From Candidatus Raymondbacteria bacterium RIFOXYA2_FULL_49_16 (GTDB lineage Bacteria; Fibrobacterota; OXYB2-FULL-49-7; XYB2-FULL-49-35), in the NCBI GenBank assembly GCA_001789205.1, contig MFYT01000012.1, positions 1 through 64,000 of the forward strand: a stretch of DNA of 64,000 bases, given 5' to 3'. Each line of letters opens with the position of its first letter. The stretch's first letter is position 1. The notes below the pieces were generated by a model. It was not told where the DNA came from. It saw only the letters and a list, made by a program, of their open reading frames with translations, and searched no databases. The position numbers were made by a program, and so were the translations under genes. Shown one piece after another: positions 3,957 to 44,835 of the stretch.

Positions 3957-6227
3957 TTAAGGGGCTAATAGAGAATCAGCTTCCACTGCGCCTGGATGTA
4001 TTTTTCCAACCAACAGCGGATCACAATAAAATGGATTGCCCGAATAGGCGGTTTTTCTGAAATAGCCGTTGCCAGTTTCCAGGAGACCTTCAGGACAGGC
4101 AAAAACCGCGAGCGCAACAGTGAAGAGCTGCTTCGAAATCCCATTGGTAAAAGCCCCGGAAACAATACCCTGTTCGTCAACAATGACGGATGAGAGCCGG
4201 CCTGCGGCATAGCCGTCCTGGTTTGCCGCTGAGAGCGAGGTGGGCGACTGGAACTGGGTAATACCCCCGTGGCTGCCGGGCGAACCCCAGTCAAACGTTA
4301 TTGCAAGGGTATCGGTTCCATCCTTGAGGCCAAGAGAGACTTTATTTACACTGTCGTTGGTGAAGGTGAATGACGCGGGCGAGCCATCGAGTCCAAAAGT
4401 TATACGCCCCGAGCTACCGGAAAATATTGATGCCTCGCTGCTACATGTAACATTCCAGTTCCACGTGCCGGGATTTTTAATGCCCGTATGCGTAAAGGTC
4501 ATTGTCATGGAGTGTGTTTTACCCTGGCAGTCGTAAACTTCGATCGAGGCGGAGTATATTCCCGTGTTACGTGAGGCCTGCAGTTGCGTGGTCACCATGT
4601 TCGCGTTAAAGCGTGTGGGAGCGTCGGAATTTGGGTTGGCATTGTCAGCCAGCATTGTGAAATTGTTCAGGGAGAAATCCTGTTCGGGCTGGCCCCGTAT
4701 CACCATGGCACCTTCTGGTATACCGTCATCATCAGTATTCACCTGGTTTATGCTCACGGACAGATTGTTGTTTATTGTTCCGTCGTATTCAGGCAGATGC
4801 AGCGTGTTTCTGATTTGGTAAAATATCTCCTGCAGCGTTGTGGATGTATGAATGAAGAGTGTACCAGTACTGAAAGTAAACCCAGAGGAATTTTTTGGTG
4901 TGCTGCCGACAAATGCGGTGATGATCAAATCATCGCCATTCTCTACATCCACAAGGTCACCTGTTGAAGTGTAAATCATTGCCTGAGGGTTGCCAATGCC
5001 TGTGCCACCTGCTGAAAAAAACATGTAATCAAATATATTGTCCGTTGCGAGCGCAGGGCGTAGTATCATATCTGGCGAATCTGAATAATTATTACCGTTT
5101 TGCAGATTAGCATATATGGTCGAATCAAATGAGAAGGCGTTGGAAATATACGTCCTTGAAATTGGCCGGTCACTGGTTACGGTCAGGTTTCTGATGTCCT
5201 GGGTGCTTGTGCCGCCGTCAGCAACACCGAGGTTTTCAACACGAATGCTCCCATCGGGCATAATCGCGACTCGCGCTCCTGAGGCGTTTGAGCCAGCGCC
5301 CTGGTTCCAGGCATTGCCAGTTAAAAAATCCTGCATGCACGCGAGGAACTGGGAGAGCGTTGCGACATTGTATAGACAGTCGGATATTTTTGTAGCCTGC
5401 GCCGGATTGTCTATCACAGTAAAGGTGGCAGTCAATGTCTCATCCATACCCAGTGTGCCCTGGATTGTGGCAGTAACCTTGAGGTGGTTGCCTATTTTTA
5501 TGCCAAGGTTTTGGCCGCCAGCATTGCGTACCCCAGTCAGGTGTGTTGCGGTATAAAACGCCGGGTCAGTGGCAAGAGCGCTGACGCTTGCGGGTGCCGA
5601 AGCATGATGAAGGCCATTTGCGCCAAAATCATTGTCTCCACCCCCTGTGGAAATCGAAACCGTATTGAATTCACCCATCGCATGATAAAACGGCTGTGTA
5701 AATAAGACGCAGCCGAAGCCTTCGCTGTCTGCATTCAAGTTTCCCGCAAGGGAGACCATTGTTGTGGCCTGCGCTGCTGAGGCAAAAGTATACAACGGAG
5801 TTTGAATGGGAGCAAGCAGTGATTCCTGAAGATAGAGGCCAGTATCGCTTGCCAAAGAAGAGAGGTCGGGAGCACCGACAAACCCCATGAGCCGCGGGCC
5901 ATCAAGTTCTTTAACCAAATATCCGTCTTTATCAAGAAAAAATGATCCTGGCCTGCGTAAAAAGACAAGCGAAGTGTCTTGTTTCAGTACAAACATGCCG
6001 TTCCCCTCAATGGCCATGTTGTATGGCTTGCCCGTAGTGCAGACAGGCTGCTGGTAGAAGTTAAATTTGTTGAGCGCAACAGTACCCACGAGTGAATCAG
6101 CGGATATCTGGCGGTTTCTACTGTCTTGGAGATCGGTATCTTCATCTGTGCCAGACGAAACCGGGTTTTCCTTTGAACAGCTCAGAAGTAAAATAAGGAC
6201 TGAAATTGAAAGTAGAGATTTAAACAT
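3957..6227 (-). CDS. Lipoprotein with flagellar-hook (FlgE-like) domains
   Basis: The 756-residue product begins with a lipoprotein signal (LLSISVLILLLSC, lipidated Cys17), so it should be anchored in an envelope membrane. Just after it comes a hook/rod-type segment: NMAIEGNGMFVL, then RPGSFFLDKDGYLV and GPRLMGF. Around residues 560-690 a FlgE D2-like region appears (IYSASIEVYDCQGKTHSMTM, GTWNWNV). The end (GNGYFRKTAYSG, then GKIHPGAVEADSLLAP) matches the hook C-terminal D1 region but stops before the final D0 helix. The N-terminal D0 helix is replaced by the lipoprotein signal. The start was chosen from AAAGGAT at good spacing. No flagellar genes occur in the window. The function is unknown; a non-polymerising, hook-derived surface protein is my inference. 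Confidence 0.72.
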   Translation of the reverse strand: MFKSLLSISVLILLLSCSKENPVSSGTDEDTDLQDSRNRQISADSLVGTVALNKFNFYQQPVCTTGKPYNMAIEGNGMFVLKQDTSLVFLRRPGSFFLDKDGYLVKELDGPRLMGFVGAPDLSSLASDTGLYLQESLLAPIQTPLYTFASAAQATTMVSLAGNLNADSEGFGCVLFTQPFYHAMGEFNTVSISTGGGDNDFGANGLHHASAPASVSALATDPAFYTATHLTGVRNAGGQNLGIKIGNHLKVTATIQGTLGMDETLTATFTVIDNPAQATKISDCLYNVATLSQFLACMQDFLTGNAWNQGAGSNASGARVAIMPDGSIRVENLGVADGGTSTQDIRNLTVTSDRPISRTYISNAFSFDSTIYANLQNGNNYSDSPDMILRPALATDNIFDYMFFSAGGTGIGNPQAMIYTSTGDLVDVENGDDLIITAFVGSTPKNSSGFTFSTGTLFIHTSTTLQEIFYQIRNTLHLPEYDGTINNNLSVSINQVNTDDDGIPEGAMVIRGQPEQDFSLNNFTMLADNANPNSDAPTRFNANMVTTQLQASRNTGIYSASIEVYDCQGKTHSMTMTFTHTGIKNPGTWNWNVTCSSEASIFSGSSGRITFGLDGSPASFTFTNDSVNKVSLGLKDGTDTLAITFDWGSPGSHGGITQFQSPTSLSAANQDGYAAGRLSSVIVDEQGIVSGAFTNGISKQLFTVALAVFACPEGLLETGNGYFRKTAYSGNPFYCDPLLVGKIHPGAVEADSLLAP

Positions 6228-6321
6228 CCAGCGATCCTTTGTTAACCGGTTTAACTCTTTGATATACAATAAATATGCAAAATAAGTACCAGAGCTAAAT
6301 AAATAACAGGATCAACGGGTT

Positions 6322-32758: not shown

Positions 32759-33223
32759 ATGACCATGTTTCGCATATTCAAACAGCCCGCCCTTGCGGCG
32801 GGTTGTTTTTTTCTTTTTTGCGCGCTCTCCTGCTCACGTTCGGCCGATGTCGGCGCTCTCCTGCCTCCCGAATTCACCGTTGTCAGCACCTGCTGCTGCG
32901 TGCGGTTCCACGACCTCTTTGCCACCCAAGGCTGTATTGGCATGGTCTGCGGCACTGCAAACGAAACGGCCGTTCAGGCAATCTGTTTTGCCTATGCGCG
33001 GGCCGAGGAGCCGCCAGTGCTGCTCAGGGCTTTTATCAACCTTTGCGAGGAAACGGGACTTGCTTATTCACTGCCAGGGGGAAATAAAAAACCGGTGGTC
33101 CTGACACAGGACAGCACCGGCTGTTTTTTTTGCGTGAGTTATGTCAAAAAACGCCTGTTTTTCGCCTCATCGTCCAGCGACTCAAAGGCAATTGCCGCCA
33201 TGGGCCGCTGCCTTTCTCAGTAA
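32759..33223 (+). CDS. Small Cys-rich lipoprotein of unknown function
   Basis: A product of about 154 residues with a lipoprotein signal (LAAGCFFLFCALSC; lipidated Cys about residue 25). The mature part is cysteine-rich (STCCCVRFHDL, QGCIGMVCG, later GCFFCVSYV) and has mixed strands and helices; no family was recognised. The same frame is open further upstream across rpsU, but that part is a shadow of rpsU and is excluded. An ATG two codons downstream is equally possible. The last 7 bases overlap the convergent glycoside-hydrolase-like gene. Confidence 0.6.
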   Translation: MTMFRIFKQPALAAGCFFLFCALSCSRSADVGALLPPEFTVVSTCCCVRFHDLFATQGCIGMVCGTANETAVQAICFAYARAEEPPVLLRAFINLCEETGLAYSLPGGNKKPVVLTQDSTGCFFCVSYVKKRLFFASSSSDSKAIAAMGRCLSQ

Positions 33224-36200
33224 ACATCGAGAAACACTTCACCTAACAGGCCCGCGGGCGTGTTCACCATCTTCAGCAGGTTGTTGTGAAGGTTGGTGAT
33301 TTCGATCTCGAGCTTGTTTTTATCGTCGTTCATAAAGCTGGTGATGTCGGCCGTGGCAGGCTGCCACGAAAGTATGGGCGCTTCCTTGCCGTTTAATCGG
33401 ACAACCACATGCGCGTCAAAGTTGCTGAGGCGCAGGATGGCCCGCTTGCACGTTCCCGGTTTCTCAAATACCTGGCGGTAGATCGCCCTGCCGCAATAGA
33501 AGGGATATCCCTGGCTTGTCCACGACCCGTACTTGAAGAGTTCGGCTTTTTTTGCCACAAACCAACCCTGGTTGCCGCGGTTGAGGGCAAAATTGCCCGC
33601 GAGGTAGACGGGATATTTGATGAGCAGCGGGTGATAGGTTGAACCGAATGTCTTTACCGTGACACGGTTGATGCCGTGCTTGATGTGCTGGGACACGTCA
33701 GCCGCGAACAGGGATGCGCCACCCAGCGCCAGTTTCTTGACTATTTCCGTTTCCTGGAACTCGTTCTCGCCCCTGCCGAAGAATTGCATGGGCTTGAGCC
33801 GCACGCCGTTAAACGACACTTCAACTGGATAGACGCCCGAGTCGGGGCCGTTGGTGTACTGGTTGATGAGCCGGTGAAGCGCGATATAGCAGGTTGAGGG
33901 AACGTGTTCCACGGAGATGTAGCTTTCGTAGGCCATATTGAGGCCTGCGTTGATGTCGCGGTTGCTGTTGATTTTCATGGTCCAGCTGGACAGGGGAAGC
34001 GCATTGAGGTCAAGCGGCTCGAGCTCCCATTCGTCCTTGAAGATGATGCGATAGACGCGGGAAGGATTGTCGAGAGCATACTCCAGCTTGAGCGGCGCCT
34101 TGATTTTTGCCCCGGTCCGTACGAACCAGGCCGCTTCGCCGGGTGAAAAGGTGTAGATGAACGACTGGACGGTCTGGTGCTGGTTTTCCGCTGACACGGG
34201 TGAGATAGCGCCCGAATTCATGTCGAGGTAATAGAGGAAGCCGTCGCGGTTCACCTTGATCTCGGCGCGGATGGATTCGGTGCGCGATTTGTTCAGCATA
34301 AAGACGTAGTCGAATGAGCCTTCGGAAAAGACGCGCGCGAGGATCCGTTTTTCCACCAGGCCTTCGACAGCGACATCGACCACGCGCTTGAGCGCCGCGC
34401 CGCACACGGTACGGAGCGACTCGAGCTCGTCGGTTTTGTTTATTGTGGTGACTGGCGAGCCTGGAGCGGACTGGAGCGCTTCCATGCGGCGGGCAAGCAA
34501 CGGGTCCTTGCCTTTTTCAAAGGTTTCGTGCGGCGTTATGCCAAAAAAGACGATTTTACCTCCGCGCTTGGCAAAGAGCTCAAAGAGCGCCGCCAGTCTC
34601 TTGGAGACAATGAGGGTCTCGGGAACAATGAGTATTTTAAAGATGCCCCTGTTTTTGCCATTGTGTTTGAAGATCGCTTCACCCTTGGGCGTGACCGTGA
34701 GGTTGGCGGCCATTGCCTCGGTCAGAAAATTAAAGGGGATGCTGTCGGCCACCAGCTGGTTGATGACAGCAGTGAAATTTTGGAGTCTGAGCTTGTATCC
34801 GGCAAGGTGCGAGGGGTTGTAGTAAGTATAGAAGGTTTGTCCGGGAAAGAGCACCGCCACAGACTCGGCATGGGGCGTTTTCTCGAGGCAGAACTGCTTG
34901 CGCATGAGGTAGGAGAGAAAGTTCTGGTACGATCCGTAGAAGCTTGAATGGACAAAGGTATTTGCCGGAGTGCGCATGCCGCTGTGGTAACCGAGCGTGG
35001 AGTACGATCCGTCGATGTGCGCAGAGTGGATACCGTGTATCGAAAGCTCATCAGATTCGAACTTGATGTCCTTGGGTGAAAGGCCCACGCCGATCCGGTT
35101 GCGGCCCAGCACGACCGTGCCGCGCGATTGGCGCGCATTGAGCGATTTCAGGTCGGCAAAGAGACGCGCGGAAATGCAATTGTCGCCCGAGAAGGGCGCT
35201 GCCGCGGTAATGCCTTCGACCGCGGGTAGCGCGGCGCATGAGGACCAGTCGAACTGGAGCATGTGCTCGGTTGAATAGTGATCGCCGCCGTTGAGATAGA
35301 TGTGCATGCCGCAGCGGCTTTTTTTTCCGAACTCGGCCAGAGGTTTAATGAAATTAGCATTGAGAAGGTCGAGCAATGACGAATAGAAAGTGCGCCGGAT
35401 AAGACCGTTTTTCGCAGAGTAGCCGTCGACAAAAAGACTGAGGACCGAGGTCATGGTGTCGGCCCCGCACGCGGCATTGAGCTTTTTCTGTATCTCAAGT
35501 GTCCAAGGGATGCCGCGGATTGAAGTGTCGGGCGCGACAGAGGGCAACTCGACCACAAAACCGGCAAGCGCGGGCGCCGCGTCCTTAGGCATTGTTTTCT
35601 TGAAATTATCAAAGGCGGCGTTGATGTAGGCGCGCGCGGCGTTTTTGTCGAGCACATTGAGCGCATAGCCGCCGACGGGTTTAATGTTGGCGCATTCGCG
35701 GAAAATGAAGAGGCGCCAGTCGCCTGTGGGAAGCTCGCATTTCAACTGGTTATTCTTGAGCATAGGGGTCAGGTTTTTTGCCGAGGAGAATTCGAGTACG
35801 CGGTCTTTGGATTTCAGGGCAAAGACATATTGGATCCCGCTTTCCTCAAAGTCGTGAGAAAACTTATGGGGTCCCTTGACCTTCAATACCCTGGCAAGGG
35901 AGAGATATTTCATCCTGAGGGCGGGTGATGCGAGCGTAAGGGCGGCGGAGGCGCCCGGGTCTGCGTTGATGAGGTCGTCGGAAAAGAAGATCTGCATGGA
36001 AAGTTTGCGCGCTTCACGGAAGACCTGCCACAAGCAGGCGAAAAAGTCGGCTGAAGGATAGGTGGGAACAGCGCTATTGTCGATTTTCAAGATTATTTTT
36101 TGGATGCCCTGTTGTTGCATGGCGAGGAGTTGGGATGCAATGGCAGCTTTTTCCAGTTTTCCGGAAAGGATATAGACCGGCATCGGGGTGTTGAATTTGG

Positions 36201-36246
36201 TGGATTTCGATGTCAATGATTTTAACAAACTTGATAAATTTGACAT
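33217..36246 (-). CDS. Large glycoside-hydrolase-like protein (GH106/GH2-type architecture)
   Basis: A 1009-residue protein. The N-terminal two-thirds resembles a TIM-barrel glycosidase: a long region with DGYSAKNGLIRRTFYSSLL and SIHGIHSAHIDGSYSTLGYH motifs, then an amidotransferase-like fold (IFKILIVPETLIVSKRLAAL). The C-terminus is a GH2-type galactose-binding jelly roll (SQGYPFYCGRAIYRQVFEKP, later AHVVVRLNGKEA, DITSF). This order recalls GH106 alpha-L-rhamnosidases and relatives. No signal peptide is seen at the chosen ATG (ribosome site GAGGA), so it may act in the cytoplasm on imported oligosaccharide. The substrate cannot be assigned. Confidence 0.65.
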   Translation of the reverse strand: MSNLSSLLKSLTSKSTKFNTPMPVYILSGKLEKAAIASQLLAMQQQGIQKIILKIDNSAVPTYPSADFFACLWQVFREARKLSMQIFFSDDLINADPGASAALTLASPALRMKYLSLARVLKVKGPHKFSHDFEESGIQYVFALKSKDRVLEFSSAKNLTPMLKNNQLKCELPTGDWRLFIFRECANIKPVGGYALNVLDKNAARAYINAAFDNFKKTMPKDAAPALAGFVVELPSVAPDTSIRGIPWTLEIQKKLNAACGADTMTSVLSLFVDGYSAKNGLIRRTFYSSLLDLLNANFIKPLAEFGKKSRCGMHIYLNGGDHYSTEHMLQFDWSSCAALPAVEGITAAAPFSGDNCISARLFADLKSLNARQSRGTVVLGRNRIGVGLSPKDIKFESDELSIHGIHSAHIDGSYSTLGYHSGMRTPANTFVHSSFYGSYQNFLSYLMRKQFCLEKTPHAESVAVLFPGQTFYTYYNPSHLAGYKLRLQNFTAVINQLVADSIPFNFLTEAMAANLTVTPKGEAIFKHNGKNRGIFKILIVPETLIVSKRLAALFELFAKRGGKIVFFGITPHETFEKGKDPLLARRMEALQSAPGSPVTTINKTDELESLRTVCGAALKRVVDVAVEGLVEKRILARVFSEGSFDYVFMLNKSRTESIRAEIKVNRDGFLYYLDMNSGAISPVSAENQHQTVQSFIYTFSPGEAAWFVRTGAKIKAPLKLEYALDNPSRVYRIIFKDEWELEPLDLNALPLSSWTMKINSNRDINAGLNMAYESYISVEHVPSTCYIALHRLINQYTNGPDSGVYPVEVSFNGVRLKPMQFFGRGENEFQETEIVKKLALGGASLFAADVSQHIKHGINRVTVKTFGSTYHPLLIKYPVYLAGNFALNRGNQGWFVAKKAELFKYGSWTSQGYPFYCGRAIYRQVFEKPGTCKRAILRLSNFDAHVVVRLNGKEAPILSWQPATADITSFMNDDKNKLEIEITNLHNNLLKMVNTPAGLLGEVFLDVY

Positions 36247-36419: not shown

Positions 36420-36465
36420 AAAAAGGTCCTGGCACCTTTTTGTGCCTATTTTAGAAACAGCGCTT
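36420..36465. repeat. Second copy of the dispersed ACCTTTTT palindromic repeat
   Basis: The palindrome AAAAAGGTCCTGGCACCTTTT and the tail GCCTATTTTAGAA match the unit near 6360-6395 (GATACCTGATACCTTT with ACCTATTTTAAGAA). It sits at the 3' end of the LamG/Ig gene and covers its stop codon region. The shared tail as well as the palindrome argues for common descent rather than a chance terminator. Confidence 0.6.
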
Positions 36466-38854
36466 TTCTACTCTTTTCCCACGTTCCTGCCTGAAGCGTG
36501 TACACATACAAACCATTCGGGCATTGCGCGCCAGTCTCGTCCAGGCCATCCCACAATATGATGTAATACCCAGGTGCAAGATTGTTCCTCACAAAACTCC
36601 TGACCTTTCTGCCTCTAATGTCCCTGATAACAAGCTGTGCATTGCATTTTTTTGGCATAGCAATCCTGATGGATGTGGTTGGATTAAAAGGATTGGGTGA
36701 ATTCTGGTATAACTCAAAAACCTTGGGCAGCAATGTTACGTTCTTCTCAACAGCAATGTCGTCCAGCGCAATAAAGAAGAACCTGTTTAACCCAACGCTG
36801 AAGCCGGTCGTATATCCTGTGGTATCATACGCGGAAACACGCCAATAAATGTATGTGCTCTCAGGATAGTCCCAGATATCCAGCAGATCACGAAGTATTA
36901 CAACTGAATCAGGAAGAGAATCAACAGCCTTTACCATTTCCTGAAACACACTGTCACGATAGAGCTCTATGGTGTATTTTGCCCCGGTTTTGATAATGTC
37001 CGGATCTCCCATGGTCCAAGCAAGTGTTGAATCCCCAAACAAAGAATCAGTCTCAACTGGCCGCACAATGGCAGGAGGCATGCCGCGGTTTTTTATCTGA
37101 ACATGCCAGATTTGTTCTATGGTAAATTCTCCGTCTGTGACTGCCACTGAAACAGTACACCTGCCAACAGAGGTATAGGTCGTAAACAGGGTGCAATAGA
37201 AGGTCGTGCATACCGGAACCCCGTTCATGGACCATGCATAGGAAAAGACTGCCTCTGAATGGTGGAAGCTGCGCGGTAATGCCCAGAATACGGCAGTATC
37301 AGTCTCATAAATCGATGTATCGTCAAAGGGGCGCCAGGTCTGGAATTCAATGGAATCAGATGAGGCAATGACATGCAGGCTGAATGACTGGGTGTCTGCA
37401 AGGCCCCGGTCGTCAGAAACAATGATGCTGATGGGGTTGTCGCTCTCTTCCCTGCTGTTCTGTGTCCATCTGAGTGTGTCTTTGGACAGGGTCATGCCAG
37501 CAGGAGAGATCGCCAGAGAACAGGTAATGGGGTCGCTGTCCGAGTCTGTTGCGCGGACAATGTAGTTCCATGGATAGTAGGCAAGAACATTGGTTGTTGG
37601 CAGGGAATTTATTGTTGGCGCATTGTTGGATCGCAGAACGTGCAGGGTAAACGAGAGGGTATCAAAACGGTTTTTTCGGTCAGACGCCTGGATCGAGACT
37701 TCGTTGTCGCTGGTGTCTCCGGCAGTCCACTGGATCACGCCAGTAACAGAATCAATGGTCATGGAATCTGGTGCAATGAGCAGGGCGTATCTGACTGTGT
37801 CTGCATCAGGGTCTATGGCTAAGACGGGGATAGAAAAGGATGTGCCTGATGCGATTATTGTGTCTGCGCTGGCTGTTGTAGAAAACACAGGGGTCTGGTT
37901 GGTTGGTGTGCCAGTAACGATAATGTTGAAACAGAGGGTATCGTATCCGCCGTTGTTGTCAGAAGCCTGGATGCAGACTGGGAATGTGCCGGTGTCATAG
38001 GGGACACCGCGAATACTAAAGTGATTAAAAAGACTGTAATAACCACTAACAGCAACGAAAGAAGGACTATGGATAGGGGTGCAGTAAATTGTATCTCCGT
38101 CAATGTCTTGTACTCTAAAATAAATCTCGTCATAAAAGTCCATTCTTTCATCAACGAATCGCTCGTAGTTGGGTAACGTATCAACAAAGAAAGGAATGTG
38201 ATTAGTAAGAACATATCTTGCCGTATCAGATATTCTGATTTCATCAATGAAGACATTAGAGAGCGTTGGCCCTCCAATAAATAGGCTGTCACTGTGGGTG
38301 TCTGTTTGGCCAGAATAGCCCACCCCGACCAATGAGTCATTAAAAAAGAGTGTTACAATGTTTCTGAGGGAATTGCGCTGTGCTCCTAGAACAAACCAGG
38401 TGTTTGTATCGAGATCTAATTGATTTGATTCGGCATTTCCAGAATTAAAGCTGGAAGAAAAGCTACTTTCGTTTAAAAATAATACATAATCTGGTGAATA
38501 ATTGATGAGTTTATAACTAAATCCTGACTGTTTATTGTTAATTTTAAATCGTACTTCTAGTGTAACCCATTCGTCAAATAAATTTAAAATGGAAGAGTTT
38601 TCCACAGCCGCAGTATTTGAAGTGTCTGAGAAGACCAAACCATTAACGCCAAGATCTGAACCCCAAGAAACCGGTTGGCCAATTTTTAAATGATTTCCAT
38701 AGAAGGAAGAATCGAAGGCAGTATCGCCTTGTCCTTCGTTAAATCGCCATAAAGCCCTGGTATGCGCATCAGACTGAAAGAAGGATTCTTGAGAAAATAG
38801 GACAGATGAAAAAACGAGAACCCATGCAACTATTATATGAGGCTTAATAAACAT
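36446..38854 (-). CDS. Secreted LamG/Ig-repeat protein with C-terminal sorting domain
   Basis: A secreted protein of about 802 residues. A signal peptide (AWVLVFSSVLFS) leads to a LamG/concanavalin-like domain at ~25-225 (TRALWRFNEGQGDTAFDSSF, later FIGGPTLSNVFIDEIRISDT), then cadherin/Ig-type repeats (TPVFSTTASADTIIASGTSF, PTINSLPTTNVLAYY). The C-terminal ~85 residues form the FlgD-Ig-like sorting domain (LYQNSPNPFNPTTSIRIAM, then NGLYVYTLQAG). Such domains send proteins to the cell surface in FCB bacteria through a type IX-like route. The ATG follows AAAGGAGA. A carbohydrate-binding surface role is inferred. Confidence 0.85.
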   Translation of the reverse strand: MFIKPHIIVAWVLVFSSVLFSQESFFQSDAHTRALWRFNEGQGDTAFDSSFYGNHLKIGQPVSWGSDLGVNGLVFSDTSNTAAVENSSILNLFDEWVTLEVRFKINNKQSGFSYKLINYSPDYVLFLNESSFSSSFNSGNAESNQLDLDTNTWFVLGAQRNSLRNIVTLFFNDSLVGVGYSGQTDTHSDSLFIGGPTLSNVFIDEIRISDTARYVLTNHIPFFVDTLPNYERFVDERMDFYDEIYFRVQDIDGDTIYCTPIHSPSFVAVSGYYSLFNHFSIRGVPYDTGTFPVCIQASDNNGGYDTLCFNIIVTGTPTNQTPVFSTTASADTIIASGTSFSIPVLAIDPDADTVRYALLIAPDSMTIDSVTGVIQWTAGDTSDNEVSIQASDRKNRFDTLSFTLHVLRSNNAPTINSLPTTNVLAYYPWNYIVRATDSDSDPITCSLAISPAGMTLSKDTLRWTQNSREESDNPISIIVSDDRGLADTQSFSLHVIASSDSIEFQTWRPFDDTSIYETDTAVFWALPRSFHHSEAVFSYAWSMNGVPVCTTFYCTLFTTYTSVGRCTVSVAVTDGEFTIEQIWHVQIKNRGMPPAIVRPVETDSLFGDSTLAWTMGDPDIIKTGAKYTIELYRDSVFQEMVKAVDSLPDSVVILRDLLDIWDYPESTYIYWRVSAYDTTGYTTGFSVGLNRFFFIALDDIAVEKNVTLLPKVFELYQNSPNPFNPTTSIRIAMPKKCNAQLVIRDIRGRKVRSFVRNNLAPGYYIILWDGLDETGAQCPNGLYVYTLQAGTWEKSRKALFLK

Positions 38855-38929
38855 AAACAAGGTCTCCTTTACAAACAAGACCGGTTAAAATAATTATATA
38901 CAGGGTGCGAGCAAAATATTTGTTTTTAC

Positions 38930-39020
38930 TGCTGTTGTCACGGTCAAGAAACGTAGGGTATGACGGAGATCTTTTGTCAAGAACCCTCATACGGGCTTGG
39001 CTCGAAATGACAGGCGTCAG
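38930..39020. repeat. Probable dispersed intergenic repeat (GTCATTTCGAGC type)
   Basis: On the minus strand the sequence runs CTGTCATTTCGAGCCAAGCC, then GAGGGTTCTTGACAAAAGATC and GTCATACCCTACG. The GTCATTTCGA lead with an AGATCTC-like middle is one I recall as a widespread intergenic repeat in environmental bacterial genomes. It lies between the two large secreted-protein genes, next to the terminator. No coding potential was found. Confidence 0.4.
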
Positions 39021-39030
39021 ACTCGAAAAG

Positions 39031-39061
39031 AAAAACTCCCCCACCCAAGTGGGCGAGGGAG
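39031..39061 (-). terminator. Terminator of the transglutaminase-like gene
   Basis: Arms CTCCCCCACCC and GGGCGAGGGAG pair with two mismatches around the loop AAGT. Read on the minus strand, the hairpin is followed by TTTTTCTTTTC. It lies about 40 bases after the gene's stop codon. Confidence 0.7.
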
Positions 39062-39098
39062 TCAAGAATTGTCCAGTCTTGCAGATCTGAGAGGATTT

Positions 39099-41417
39099 TT
39101 ACCTGGTCAGAATCATCTTTCTGCTCAGGATTTCTTTCCCTGTCGAAAGCGTGTACACATAGATGCCGCTTGCTACCTGGGCACCATTGCTGTTTGTGCC
39201 ATCCCAGGTAACGCTATAGCTTCCGCCCACCAGAGCACCATACTGCAGGGTTTTAACCAGCTCGCCCTTTATTGTCCGCACATCAATCTGTACGTGTCTC
39301 TTTTCAGCACCTTTCAAGGCAAAAGAAATCGTTGTTGTGGGGTTGAAAGGATTGGGATTGTTCTGTTCAAGCATCAAGTCAGCCGATGCCACAGATGCGG
39401 CCTTATCGATGCCTACAGTAGGGTTTTGCTGGAGATCCGTAAGTAACACGCCACCGGGAACTTCTATAGTTACAGAATGGTTTGGATCTCTTGGGACAAC
39501 ACTAGAAGGATTGATGTTATACGACAGTGTCCCATTTGAAGCTGCAAGTTGTTCTGCTGAGAAGGAGAAGTTAAATGTGTCTTGGGCCACATAGGTCCTG
39601 TTTGTTATGTGTTGAATTATAATATCATTGAAATAATCAGCAGGAAAATGGTTAACATAATAGTGCATGTAGAGTTCATTTTCACGGATACTGGCATTTT
39701 GACCGCGATTATAACACTGAATATATGCCAAGCGCCCGGGATTAGTGATTGAATCACGTTCAAAATTTAAAGCATGACCCCAATGGCCAAATCCATATTC
39801 TCCATTTGCAACACATGCGTTCATGGTAGCAACCGTTGTGTTAATATGGGCTGGAATGGTCGTGGTTGTCACTAGCGCCCCTTGGCTGTTTCCAACCTTA
39901 ATATCAAACGTATTGGATGCAACCGCGCTAAACGAAGTGCTGTTGGTCCGTTGAGCCAGGAAGTTGCCGCTTATTGATCGTATTTGACCTGTGGTTGGGC
40001 CGGTCAACTCCAAAGTCATGTAGGCCCCGATTCCGCCACCATTAGTTTTGCCTCCATTACGCCAAGTGTCTGTTCCCTGATATGTGAATCCATTAGCGTC
40101 AATAACAAATCGATTAAAACCTGTCGAATTACGCCAATCAGGCAGTAATGTCAAAGTTTCATCATTGTCGTATAGTTTCAGTCTGACAGTATTAGAACCA
40201 GCGTGGATTTTGGGAAGAGCGCCTGGGCTCAACGAACTGATTGTGACGATATTGAAACCAGTTATTTTTCCTGTTCCTGAAATTTTGACCAAATAATCAT
40301 ACCGCTGCTGGGCCTGGGTTGCTCCAGAATAAATTGTCCACGTCTTCCCCAAGTCGAAAGAGAGCTGCGTGGTCAAGCCGCCGTTTTGAGTTACAGTGAT
40401 TATTGAATTATAGATGGGATATGGGATACGAACCGCCCATGTTACAGAACCATTTGCCAGGTCAACGCCGTCTGCCACAAGCGTTGCATTGGACTGTTCA
40501 TAGATGCCGTCAAGATAATCAGCATATCCTGCCTGAAGTGTGGGGTGGTAGGTCATGCGCGCATTACCCCATATTTGCATGTTCTGATATGTTGCAGGAT
40601 TTGCATTAGGATGAATATATGTATTGTTTATTGGCTGAAAGAAACGTTCGATTTTTTCCCCAATACGCAGCGAAAAGCTCATATCGGCACCGCCCCCGTG
40701 GTCTGCTCCAAGAAATAGGTATGAAGGGTGCGCAAGATAATTTTTAATGTTTGACATGTTGGCAAGAGTCCAGAAATAATAAGAATGAACAGGGACTTGG
40801 TCCCATGTTGAGGCGTGTGTAGTAGCCCAATCCAAACCATATGTGACACCGTTTGTATTTGCCCCCCAACCGCCTTCATTCCAATCGAAATAATGCCAAC
40901 CACCGTTATAATACACATCACTTACTCGGTGTGCTCCATTGGATAGGCTCCATTGCCGGGCCTCAAGCCCAAGCATTTGGTAGAGATTGCATGATGATGT
41001 TCCATAATACATGCAATATCCATAATTGAAGACGTTAAAATACTTTATTGGGTCATAGACTTGTGTCCAGTTTAGACCAATATTGAGGGGATCTTCTTTG
41101 TAATTTTGACCATCGTGGCTATGGTATTCATTTTTCCGAGCATACTGATCACTTAGACCCCATTCTCCAAACATCGCAGCATCACGCATCTCCCCCACAC
41201 ACACAGTATCGTGCAGCGCTTTAAAGAAGGGGTCGAGATCCGCCGGATTGTAGGCGGGAAATTCCGCGCAATTTTCGTTTGTTGTGGTAAGCTTTGAGCA
41301 GCTCCACAAGTTTAGATCCCGATCACCCAAAATCCATGGGTTGCGCAAACGTGCGTACGCACCAATGGCAACAAGGATAATGACCGCGCAGGTCAATATG
41401 GCGTTACATCGTTTCAT
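39099..41417 (-). CDS. Secreted transglutaminase-like protein with C-terminal sorting domain
   Basis: The 772-residue protein starts with a signal peptide (ILTCAVIILVAIGAYA). The region ~130-182 resembles a transglutaminase/papain-like core: GYCMYYGTSSCNLYQMLGLE (Cys135), GAHRVSDVYYNGGWHYFD (His163, Asp178), in the order and spacing expected for a Cys-His-Asp triad. The middle (~190-650) is beta-rich with no domain I can name. The end is a sorting domain (LEQNNPNPFNPTTTISFAL ... ASGIYVYTLSTG). AAAGGAG precedes the ATG. It may crosslink or cleave peptide bonds at the surface; that activity is inference from the triad only. Confidence 0.78.
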   Translation of the reverse strand: MKRCNAILTCAVIILVAIGAYARLRNPWILGDRDLNLWSCSKLTTTNENCAEFPAYNPADLDPFFKALHDTVCVGEMRDAAMFGEWGLSDQYARKNEYHSHDGQNYKEDPLNIGLNWTQVYDPIKYFNVFNYGYCMYYGTSSCNLYQMLGLEARQWSLSNGAHRVSDVYYNGGWHYFDWNEGGWGANTNGVTYGLDWATTHASTWDQVPVHSYYFWTLANMSNIKNYLAHPSYLFLGADHGGGADMSFSLRIGEKIERFFQPINNTYIHPNANPATYQNMQIWGNARMTYHPTLQAGYADYLDGIYEQSNATLVADGVDLANGSVTWAVRIPYPIYNSIITVTQNGGLTTQLSFDLGKTWTIYSGATQAQQRYDYLVKISGTGKITGFNIVTISSLSPGALPKIHAGSNTVRLKLYDNDETLTLLPDWRNSTGFNRFVIDANGFTYQGTDTWRNGGKTNGGGIGAYMTLELTGPTTGQIRSISGNFLAQRTNSTSFSAVASNTFDIKVGNSQGALVTTTTIPAHINTTVATMNACVANGEYGFGHWGHALNFERDSITNPGRLAYIQCYNRGQNASIRENELYMHYYVNHFPADYFNDIIIQHITNRTYVAQDTFNFSFSAEQLAASNGTLSYNINPSSVVPRDPNHSVTIEVPGGVLLTDLQQNPTVGIDKAASVASADLMLEQNNPNPFNPTTTISFALKGAEKRHVQIDVRTIKGELVKTLQYGALVGGSYSVTWDGTNSNGAQVASGIYVYTLSTGKEILSRKMILTR

Positions 41418-41543
41418 GAGTGCTCCTTTAGTAGAAAATTACATTTAGACTCTTGGAAAACGGGAAGACCAGCAACCCCAACAGGTCGAATGACCTATAT
41501 AAAAGATAGAATTTTTACCCGGAAAATGCCACTGATTTTGGTA

Positions 41544-41580
41544 TGCATTCAATGCCCTATTCACAGCGGATTTGAATGCA
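41544..41580. other. Inverted repeat downstream of mntP
   Basis: TGCATTCAA (41544-41552) and TTGAATGCA (41572-41580) form perfect 9-bp arms 19 bases apart. They lie just past the mntP stop codon and about 125 bases before the transglutaminase-like gene start on the same strand. It could be a factor-independent terminator without a T-run or an operator for the next gene. Confidence 0.4.
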
Positions 41581-41591
41581 TAGTACGTGCA

Positions 41592-42152
41592 CTATGAAAT
41601 AGTATGTTCAAACAATATTTTCAGGCCAATGGCAATAAGCACAAGGCCCCCGGCCCTCTCGACCCAGTGTCCAAAAAGCGTACCGACCCTTTTGCCAATG
41701 GAGAGGCCTATGATTGAAAAGAACGCGCATACAATACCGATTATGATACTTGGGGTCACAATAGGGACCCGCATCATGCCGAAGCTGAGGCCCACAGCCA
41801 TTGCATCGATGCTGGTTGCCACGGAAAGGAAGATGAGGGTAAGACCGCGCGAGGGGTCCTGGGAAAAGCCCGCTTCTTTTTTCTCAAACGATTCTTTGAT
41901 CATTTTTATGCCAACAAACGCAAGCAGCACAAGCGCCAGCCAGTGGTCATAGGCCTTGATATACTGTTCAACAAAAACACCGCCGAAATAGCCCAGAATG
42001 GGCATGAAAAATTGGAAAAGCCCGAAATGAAAGGCCAGCCTGAAGTAGTGGCGGGGCGTGGGGTTTCCCAGGGAAATGCCCGCGGCAATGGACACGGAAA
42101 AGGCGTCCATGGCAAGACTTACGGCAATGCCGGTAATTGTGAGCAAATCCAT
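41592..42152 (-). CDS. mntP: Manganese efflux pump MntP
   Basis: An inner-membrane protein of 186 residues with six hydrophobic helices and the paired acidic motifs of the family: SLAMDAFSVSIAAG near the N-terminus and VATSIDAMAVGLSFG in the second half. MntP exports excess manganese. It lies 52 bases after the YetA-like gene on the same strand and may share its transcript. The short spacer leaves no room for the yybP-ykoY manganese riboswitch often found before mntP. Confidence 0.93.
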   Translation of the reverse strand: MDLLTITGIAVSLAMDAFSVSIAAGISLGNPTPRHYFRLAFHFGLFQFFMPILGYFGGVFVEQYIKAYDHWLALVLLAFVGIKMIKESFEKKEAGFSQDPSRGLTLIFLSVATSIDAMAVGLSFGMMRVPIVTPSIIIGIVCAFFSIIGLSIGKRVGTLFGHWVERAGGLVLIAIGLKILFEHTIS

Positions 42153-42204
42153 GAGCTATTACTATGCAATGTTCTCGGTATAAACGCGGTTTTGTACGAT
42201 TGTT

Positions 42205-44835
42205 TTACCTCATCACGATCACCCGGCCAGCGGCAACCTGGCTTCCCGCAGTCGCTTTTATTACATATACACCGCTTCTTATTTCTCCAGGCCTCCAGAT
42301 AACGGTTGTCCGCCCCATGCCGGGTTGCAAGGTCTGTACCAGTCTGCCATTGATGTCATATACTTGGACAAACGGTGGTTCTGTTTCCCGAATATGTTTA
42401 TTAAACGCGAACGAAATGGCGACTGTCCGGGTAAAAGGATTCGGCGAAACAGAGACAAAGGCCCGGGCTGCCGTACGGCCGCTGTTTTTTTCGATCTGGT
42501 CCGGCGGGAAGCTTTGTGCCAGGTAATCCGGATATTGGGTCAGATAATCAGGGTTTATCAGCAAATATTTCAGGTAATCGGGCGCTTCACGGAACCGCTC
42601 CACGTGCTCCTTTGCGCGCGCGGACGGGGACAGGTTTGCGCTCACGAAAAAAGCCTCCCAACAGCGCTGCGCGCCATGGGCGATGAGCGTGTCTTCAGGC
42701 GCAAGTTCAAGGGCCTTGGAAAGCCCCCCAAGGAACCACTGCGGAAAAGCGTCCGCCACCGTTTGATTGTCCGCGGCCACGTTCCGCGCCCAGGTGAGCA
42801 GCATGGTTTGCGCATGCGCATCGCCCGAATCGGCAAAGACGTGGTCCGCAATGCCCGCGCCTACAATGGCGTTCTGGAAATAATTGGAGGTGAGTACTGT
42901 GGCGCAATGGTCGCCGGTGTTTGGTCCGTTCGTATAGTAAAGATGCGCGCGGTCGCGGTATTGCGCGTCGCCCGTGGCCTCGTAAGCGGAGGCAAGACCC
43001 ATGAGCACATGGCCGAGTGAACGGTATTCGCCGTTGTTGGCGAAACGGTTCATGGGAAAGCGCACGATACGCAGGGCAAGTTCCTTGAGCATGGGTTCGT
43101 TGTACACGGCCCACCAGTCAAGGAGACCGGTGATTTTCCAATGGTTGGCGTTGCCGTCATTTCCCGCAATGCAATCCTGGTATCCGAAAAACTGCTCCAC
43201 ACCCGGGCAAATTTTGCAATCGCCGTTTACATTGTCGTGGTCGAGGTCCGCTGTTTGCAGGGCGCGGCCCATGCCCCAGAGCGCCGTGGTCTGGTCAGCG
43301 TGCATGGCATATGCGAGCGCGCCCAGGTATGCCATGTCGTAATAATTGTTTGCCGTGTGCTGGCGGTTGGCGCAGCAGCAGTTGACCGGATCAACATTAT
43401 CTCCGTACCAGAGAAAGTTGTACCCATTGTTCCACGTCATTGCGCCTGTTGCATAGGGATACTGTAATGCGGCGGCATACCCTGCATGGCCAAAGACCAG
43501 GCAGGTGTTTTTGTACACATTGAAGAAGCGGACCCACGAGGTCCGTTCCGTGCTGTTGTGCGCGAACAGGTCCGGGTCAGCGTGCACCAGCGTGTTGCCA
43601 AAGACCTGTGTTTTGCCGCAGAGCCACACTGCCGGCGGAATGGCGTAGAGGGGTTGGGCGATTGCATAATAGGCCTCCTCGGTTAGGCCAATGCTGTCGC
43701 TGAAATTGACAAAAGCAATGTGCGTGCGGCCAAACCCGCCATACCAGTCGGTGGCGGGGCCCAGGCTGCTGTACAACCCAAGGGAAAGGGCGCCTGTGCT
43801 GTTTGCCAGAAGGTGTTTGGGCGCCATTTCCCAGAAATAGCGCATACCGCATCCCAGGCCTTTTGTTCCGTCAGACACATGGAGCCAGCCCATCTTTTTT
43901 GTGCCGCCGGTCACTTCGTTCTGGCCTTTTCCCGAGGCAAGGAGAGTTGCGTTCTTTTTGATCTCATAGACATCGGACGAACTGTAGTGTTCTGTCAGTT
44001 GCTCGCCTGTGGAGAGAGCGGTTTCAAAACGGCCGTCCGCATCAAGGTGGCTCACGGTCGCGGTAAGCGCTCCCGCAAGCCTGGTCTTGAAATTCATGGA
44101 CAGGGCCGAAAGAACCATGGATGAAGACGCGAAGTCGTTCATGTACCAGTTGTGTATTATCCGGACATAGGGTTTATTGCGATATGCGGTTACATAGAGC
44201 ACCATAGGATACTGTGCGCCCGCGGAAACAGCGGCGCGTATGCATACCTGCCCTGGTGTATGCCACACTACCGAAAGCTGGGCTGTTGCGCCCGTGGTGA
44301 CGTTTGTCCCAACTGTCAGGGCGCTGGCATTGCCCGATTCAATGATCTTGTGCGCACTATCATAATTTCCGCTGCCGCTCAGGTCCGCCCAGGCCTCATC
44401 AAAGATATTGAAACCTGTTGAGTGCATGGTAAAGCGGGCGACACCCGTGGTCACGGTCACAACACCGGCTGTTTCGGAGACCGTGAGCGTCCCTGAAGCG
44501 GGGTTCGATCCCTTGTCGCTCAGGATATAGGTTGTTGCGCCCGAGGCGGCGACCGTGGCGTCAAACGCCACGCCAAGCCAGCGGATGGAGCCGTCCTCCC
44601 AGGTTTCAACAACCGTGAAACCCGCGGGCACAGACTTATTGGTCGCCGAATCCTGTATGGCGAAAAGCACGGTGTCAGCAGGCTGATATGCTCCCTTGGG
44701 CATGGGCACGCTGTTCGACACAGGTGCGCTGGTTCGCGCGACGCCCGCGTGTTCAGTGACGCGCAGGGGCAATGCAAGACCGCAGACGCTTATACATGCG
44801 CCAGAGACGCAGAGGAACATGAGGGAGAGGTTCAT
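42205..44835 (-). CDS. Secreted YetA / exo-rhamnogalacturonan-lyase-like protein with sorting domain
   Basis: The 876-residue protein has a signal peptide (LMFLCVSGACISVCGLA) and an N-terminal RIFT-barrel-like region of the PcRGLX/YetA family (LPLRVTEHAGVARTSAPVSN, then FTVVETWEDGSIRWLGVAFD). A central beta domain and a helical (alpha/alpha)-type region follow (TGLLDWWAVYNEPMLKELAL, GHVLMGLASAYEATGDAQYR), ending in a sorting domain (VSVSPNPFTRTVAISFAFN ... SGVYVIKATAG). Relatives include an exo-acting rhamnogalacturonan lyase, so pectin side-chain breakdown is a reasonable guess. Its start overlaps the NHL gene stop by ATGA. Confidence 0.75.
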   Translation of the reverse strand: MNLSLMFLCVSGACISVCGLALPLRVTEHAGVARTSAPVSNSVPMPKGAYQPADTVLFAIQDSATNKSVPAGFTVVETWEDGSIRWLGVAFDATVAASGATTYILSDKGSNPASGTLTVSETAGVVTVTTGVARFTMHSTGFNIFDEAWADLSGSGNYDSAHKIIESGNASALTVGTNVTTGATAQLSVVWHTPGQVCIRAAVSAGAQYPMVLYVTAYRNKPYVRIIHNWYMNDFASSSMVLSALSMNFKTRLAGALTATVSHLDADGRFETALSTGEQLTEHYSSSDVYEIKKNATLLASGKGQNEVTGGTKKMGWLHVSDGTKGLGCGMRYFWEMAPKHLLANSTGALSLGLYSSLGPATDWYGGFGRTHIAFVNFSDSIGLTEEAYYAIAQPLYAIPPAVWLCGKTQVFGNTLVHADPDLFAHNSTERTSWVRFFNVYKNTCLVFGHAGYAAALQYPYATGAMTWNNGYNFLWYGDNVDPVNCCCANRQHTANNYYDMAYLGALAYAMHADQTTALWGMGRALQTADLDHDNVNGDCKICPGVEQFFGYQDCIAGNDGNANHWKITGLLDWWAVYNEPMLKELALRIVRFPMNRFANNGEYRSLGHVLMGLASAYEATGDAQYRDRAHLYYTNGPNTGDHCATVLTSNYFQNAIVGAGIADHVFADSGDAHAQTMLLTWARNVAADNQTVADAFPQWFLGGLSKALELAPEDTLIAHGAQRCWEAFFVSANLSPSARAKEHVERFREAPDYLKYLLINPDYLTQYPDYLAQSFPPDQIEKNSGRTAARAFVSVSPNPFTRTVAISFAFNKHIRETEPPFVQVYDINGRLVQTLQPGMGRTTVIWRPGEIRSGVYVIKATAGSQVAAGRVIVMR

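Follow-up and report, generated by a model that had tools for sequence, protein, structure and literature searches.

The gene at positions 3957 to 6227 on the minus strand of the window (the whole 64,000-nucleotide stretch of DNA that was analyzed) encodes a 756-aa lipoprotein, hereafter HL, which judging by profile matches and a predicted structure is nearly certainly derived from the flagellar hook protein FlgE and devoid of its D0 domain. By sequence comparison with a second genome, the evolution of HL and hook is concerted, and this is limited to the outer face of the hook: the flanks of HL are orthologous between the two genomes, while its outer domain follows the hook of the genome in which it resides. 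We propose, with a probability of about 0.5, that HL and a secreted outer-domain protein, OD, represent a class of membrane-anchored, non-assembling hook mimics, which would have arisen more than once in one phylum, the Fibrobacterota. Gene conversion would keep these mimics in step with the hook, since they would need either to bind it or to compete for its binders.

The HL reading frame starts with an ATG at 6227 and ends with a stop codon at 3957-3959, and an AAAGGA resembling a ribosome-binding site is read from the sequence at 6235 to 6240 (all HL features given here are on the minus strand). The N terminus, MFKSLLSISVLILLLSC17SK, combines a signal peptide with a lipobox (LLSC, Cys17; 6177 to 6227), an arrangement also seen in HL of the second genome (C-S-K); the lipoboxes of HL and its relatives were judged from the sequence. 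Given the Ser at position +2, sorting to the outer membrane would be expected. Pfam detects the FlgE D2 domain (FlgE_D2, PF07559, 7.8e-15, residues 552-673, positions 4209 to 4574) and the FlgE/F/G D1 family (2.8e-4, residues 72-115), while PF22692 scores 21.4 bits, under its cutoff of 27. The NCBIfam family FlgEFG_subfam (TIGR03506) is found over its cutoff at 7.7e-37, FlgE chains of the PDB are matched in sequence down to 2.5e-17, and the cutoff of FlgE equivalogs is not reached, the best of these being NF004242, which scores 132 bits where 365 are required. The D0 families Flg_bb_rod (PF00460) and Flg_bbr_C (PF06429) were not found in HL at E values up to 10, whereas FlgE of the same genome has both (1e-11 and 8e-18, respectively), and the HL protein ends at the point where D0 would start. 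Since D0 is reported to be essential for hook polymerization (PMC5069557), HL should not assemble.

An AlphaFold2 model of HL, built from 35 sequences and with a mean pLDDT of 80, displays a hook fold: its best fold match in the PDB is C. jejuni FlgE (5jxl, E 7.8e-21), and it matches the T. denticola D2 domain with a TM of 0.58 of the target. Between the first half of D1, contained in an N-terminal flank (residues 57-168, positions 5724 to 6059), and D2 lies an outer domain (residues 172-548, positions 4584 to 5714) that occupies the position of D3/D4 of large hooks, a label that is positional, and that alone has no significant or clear match among solved structures. The second half of D1 follows D2 (residues 690-745, positions 3993 to 4160). 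These results bear out what an earlier note on this DNA had read from the letters, namely a lipoprotein with hook-type domains, now with FlgE homology far beyond chance in Pfam, NCBIfam and the PDB, and the loss of the terminal D0 helices. The note left the strand unstated. Its description of a D2-like middle is right for residues 552-690, the rest being filled by the separate outer domain (about residues 172-548).

The source genome (G000, 5.43 Mb in 112 contigs) carries a true flgE (L002:1381-3807, 808 aa), with flgD adjacent to it and fliM close by, and HL, which is encoded outside this hook operon, is 62% identical to this FlgE over residues 62-752. The genomes with HL are flagellated, and from the true flgE, FlgH and eight flagellin-like genes of the source genome external flagella are expected; periplasmic flagella were considered and set aside on account of FlgH. 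In addition, a third gene, OD (L003:1345-2628), encodes a signal peptide followed by the hook outer domain only, and the gene upstream of it encodes an exported protein with a FlgD-Ig/secretion-tail C terminus. This two-gene unit is conserved in the second genome (L003:819-2628 and L036:4536-6344). A short sequence on contig C26 of the source genome (L004:1501-1614) resembles the C terminus of HL (61% over 38 aa) and is perhaps the remains of another copy. Within the window, the neighbors of HL encode an SLT/LysM transglycosylase and GrpB. Farther along, a 1009-aa ORF (33217-36246) with no Pfam match at 1e-5 adjoins a set of genes (36446-44835) whose products are large exported proteins ending in a FlgD-Ig or secretion-tail C terminus.

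The second genome, G001, is a Fibrobacteres MAG of about 850 contigs from another family of the same order, and contains flgE (split over two contigs), HL (L034:6626-8878) and OD. We compared the HL and FlgE proteins of these two genomes, which carry the result, one segment at a time. Over the flanks (residues 57-168 and 691-740), we counted 24 site patterns uniting the two HLs and a single one uniting HL with its own hook, whereas in the outer domain (172-548) only 1 pattern joins the HLs and 73 join HL with its own hook (Fisher p 1e-20). The best breakpoints fall at residues 170/174 and 588/596, delimiting a hook-matched segment of about residues 172-590 (positions 4464 to 5708). Trees of the flanks, although long-branched, group the two HLs with supports of 100 and 98 and reject the pairing of HL with its own hook (p 0.003 and 0.007), while the outer-domain tree rejects the grouping of the HLs by 194 lnL units (AU p 4e-52). 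Most indels of the outer domain likewise follow the genome, several of them also being present in OD. Of the 24 residues that the HL flanks share, many are absent from all of 28 FlgE proteins, including Cys63 (6039 to 6041) and Cys711 (4095 to 4097), which are found in both HLs and may be partners. OD is itself a mosaic, the first half of which follows the hook of its own genome and the second half of which joins the two OD proteins with moderate support. The flank orthology, long branches notwithstanding, rules out independent duplications in the two genomes as the whole story. A chimeric assembly was also rejected, as the outer domains of HL and FlgE differ at approximately 25% of residues and approximately 55% of third positions.

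Substitution rates display the same partition. Between HL and its own hook, dN is 0.13-0.21 in the outer domain, with dS of at least 1.8, and 0.7-1.1 in the flanks, whereas between the hooks of the two genomes dN is 0.09-0.17 in the flanks and 0.36-0.41 in the outer domain; dS is near saturation, such that its values are lower bounds only. HL has thus best preserved the very part that varies most in the hook. A dN/dS close to 0.1 for the outer domain, together with saturated dS, shows that HL is no decaying duplicate; an intact frame and an orthologue in another family further led us to discard a pseudogene or a recent duplicate.

Upstream of HL, 48 bp before its ATG, we found a sigma-54-type site, TGGTACTTATTTTGCA (6276 to 6291), that fits the consensus (GG-N10-GC) at 10 of 11 positions, a score reached by 5 of 3134 background slices. 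HL of G001 has TGGCATAAATATTGCT at the corresponding place, 59 bp before its start (10/11), and adjoins a gene that reads, by eye, as sigma-54-activator-like. Across the source genome, we counted 50 occurrences of the pattern and 17 of a reversed control; sites lie upstream of flgB and flgF (both 11/11), of a flagellin gene on contig C61 (10/11) and of the hook operon (9/11). Searches with the sigma-28 consensus gave weak matches only. These sites suggest that HL is co-expressed with the flagella. A sigma-54-type site also lies just upstream of each of two genes for related small exported proteins with a SAKKSYVFKTYLK motif (L161 and L169, on contigs C103 and C100 of the source genome). The earlier note had seen no flagellar gene near HL, and indeed none is present among the 20 other ORFs of the window that were scanned; its remark that the immediate context gives no simple partner can now be made more specific, as the best candidate is the hook, encoded on another contig. 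Its idea of reuse at the envelope is supported insofar as HL is a hook-derived lipoprotein lacking the polymerizing ends; however, HL has not been cut loose from the hook, since its outer domain tracks its own FlgE and its gene carries a flagellar-type sigma-54 site.

Of the 168 Fibrobacterota genomes analyzed, about 60 have FlgE-type genes, and HL-type genes were found in 4 of these, a count that may omit diverged single-copy relatives; outside the phylum, one scan of GTDB contigs was made. With such a limited occurrence, HL is not a core part of the flagellum. In addition to the two HLs above, family f8 contributes a gene in G162 (L076:538-2634) and family f3 a gene in G076 (L110:127-1095), which encodes a 322-aa lipoprotein that has D1 and D2 but lacks the outer domain. 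The latter lies directly upstream of a BamA-like gene. All four proteins have the lipobox Cys and none has D0; the G001 and G162 proteins, which lie outside flagellar operons, thereby answer the check on homologues suggested in the earlier note. In the G162 protein the Cys is followed by Asp, a signal for inner-membrane retention in enteric bacteria, and the search for a sigma-54 site of this gene gave no good match. Trees built by segment place the G076 form beside the FlgE of its own genome; for the outer domain and D2 they place the G162 form among the hooks of its genus. Both thus look to be of separate origin, less surely so for G162 because its flanks are long-branched. The C-terminal half of the G162 outer domain is 76% identical to its own hook, compared with 71% between this hook and that of its congener G160; the N-terminal half (53% vs 67%) is without this pattern, and the flanks are 33-41% identical to the own hook. 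Several other candidates were discarded: a match in an Akkermansia MAG (L051) is an ordinary FlgE beside flgD, the G167 protein keeps the N-terminal D0 and sits in a hook operon, and the two copies in G079 are FlgE proteins that retain D0. G079, a small incomplete genome, thus holds two full-length FlgE genes (L108 and L109). No description of FlgE as a lipoprotein came up in our literature searches.

Taken together, these data suggest that HL acts by resembling or touching the hook. Our favored version, which we advance tentatively and put somewhat short of even odds, is that HL is an outer-membrane accessory contacting the hook via its outer domains. HL is a FlgE paralogue that has shed the two D0 helices along with the start used for flagellar export and has acquired a lipoprotein signal peptide, changes from which Sec export, lipidation at Cys17 and a non-polymerizing subunit at the outer membrane would be expected. 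A disulfide between Cys63 and Cys711 may close the D1 halves in place of the D0 clamp, and HL would probably be made together with the flagellum under sigma-54. The outer domain would be the conserved working part, kept the same as the fast-changing hook of its own genome by gene conversion and purifying selection, and HL could dock on the hook where it exits the outer membrane, forming a collar, a tether or an anchor there. In the C. jejuni hook, extra outer domains contribute many contacts, both inside single protofilaments and from one to the next, and vary on their exposed side (PMC5097172). The docking surfaces would be the faces of D2 and the outer domain by which hook subunits touch each other, and each of the known forms, that is, HL (D1 to outer domain), OD (outer domain only) and the G076 form (D1 and D2), appears to keep surfaces of the types that touch neighboring hook subunits. 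Secreted OD may coat the same hook surface. As the outer domain lacks a significant match among solved structures, these contact surfaces are placed by position only. Against docking, a membrane-held protein on a rotating hook could hinder its rotation, and the rarity of HL-type genes, the Asp after the lipobox Cys of the G162 protein and the lack of a good sigma-54 site for its gene count against it as well.

A serious rival to docking, which we hold to be unlikely, is that HL at the surface and shed OD act as decoys: by showing the outer face of the hook they would absorb hook-binding phages, predators or host factors, and an arms race would drive hook variation, with copying updating the decoy. 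The outer face is indeed the most variable part of the hook and yet is matched in HL, a soluble protein consisting of the outer domain alone suits this role, and patchy occurrence with repeated origin suits a defense trait. On the other hand, a decoy fixed to the envelope draws the attacker to the cell, we know of no hook-binding phage for this group, and no viral relatives of HL were found in viral contigs or phage records. The same searches, together with the lack of a significant viral fold, led us to reject a phage origin of HL. For C. jejuni, variation of hook D3/D4 has been attributed to selection acting on determinants exposed at the surface (PMC5097172), and the flagellin paralogue FlaB protects against a phage (PMC5126078), both of which are in favor of a decoy. 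The short G076 lipoprotein argues the other way: since it keeps D2, with its hook contacts, and has no outer domain, it fits docking better than an outer-domain decoy.

Alternatively, HL may serve an unrelated envelope role, such as adhesion or wall contact, and undergo occasional ectopic conversion with flgE with no selection for matching, a view that we find somewhat improbable. Only within the hook-following tract do HL and flgE remain similar enough to recombine, and saturation of dS everywhere means that no recent event is visible; a precedent exists in the duplicate flagellin genes of Campylobacter, for which PMC5126078, at the point where it cites Meinersmann and Hiett (2000), gives concerted evolution. 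Nevertheless, low dN with saturated dS in the outer domain indicates that the amino acid sequence has been maintained since the last conversion. The G162 protein, of apparently separate origin, also has an outer domain whose C-terminal half is nearest to its own hook, and HL is linked to flagellar genes by its sigma-54 site. Even less credit is due, in our opinion, to HL and OD as a sequence reservoir that donates by recombination and diversifies the outer face of the hook, as proposed for duplicate flagellin genes. The mosaic structure of OD, whose first half resembles the own hook and whose second half is orthologous between genomes, and the strong differences between hook outer domains across genomes would fit such a role, but a donor needs no lipobox, intact frame or promoter, all of which HL has. 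Moreover, the HL flanks are conserved between families, and the dS comparison reveals no recent tract.

To our knowledge, hook proteins have been regarded as parts of the filament only. That the surface of HL is matched to the hook while the rest diverges points to selection on the outer face of the hook acting outside the hook itself. HL would thus offer a direct way into the question of why outer hook domains differ so strongly from one bacterium to another, be it motor mechanics, phage pressure or both, and it singles out a few genes with which the cause of this variation can be tested. Compared with known systems, HL shares D1, D2, the outer domain and the predicted hook fold with FlgE (PF07559, TIGR03506), including that of its own genome, but lacks both D0 helices, carries a lipoprotein signal and the conserved Cys63 and Cys711, and is encoded outside the hook operon. 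FlgE of C. jejuni with D3/D4 (5jxl, 5az4), the best structural match, has a similarly large and variable outer insert in D2; it polymerizes, however, and the outer domain of the Fibrobacterota proteins is itself without a significant structural match. HL also matches, in sequence and fold, the hook paralogue FlgE2 of H. pylori (5npy), a second FlgE-type protein that, unlike HL, presumably retains its axial ends. The nearest evolutionary parallel is provided by FlaA and FlaB of Campylobacter, surface filament paralogues that, like HL and the hook, undergo concerted evolution, and of which the minor flagellin is controlled by sigma-54 and implicated in phage defense (PMC5126078). Both of these are filament subunits, whereas HL is a lipoprotein that, lacking D0, would be unable to assemble.
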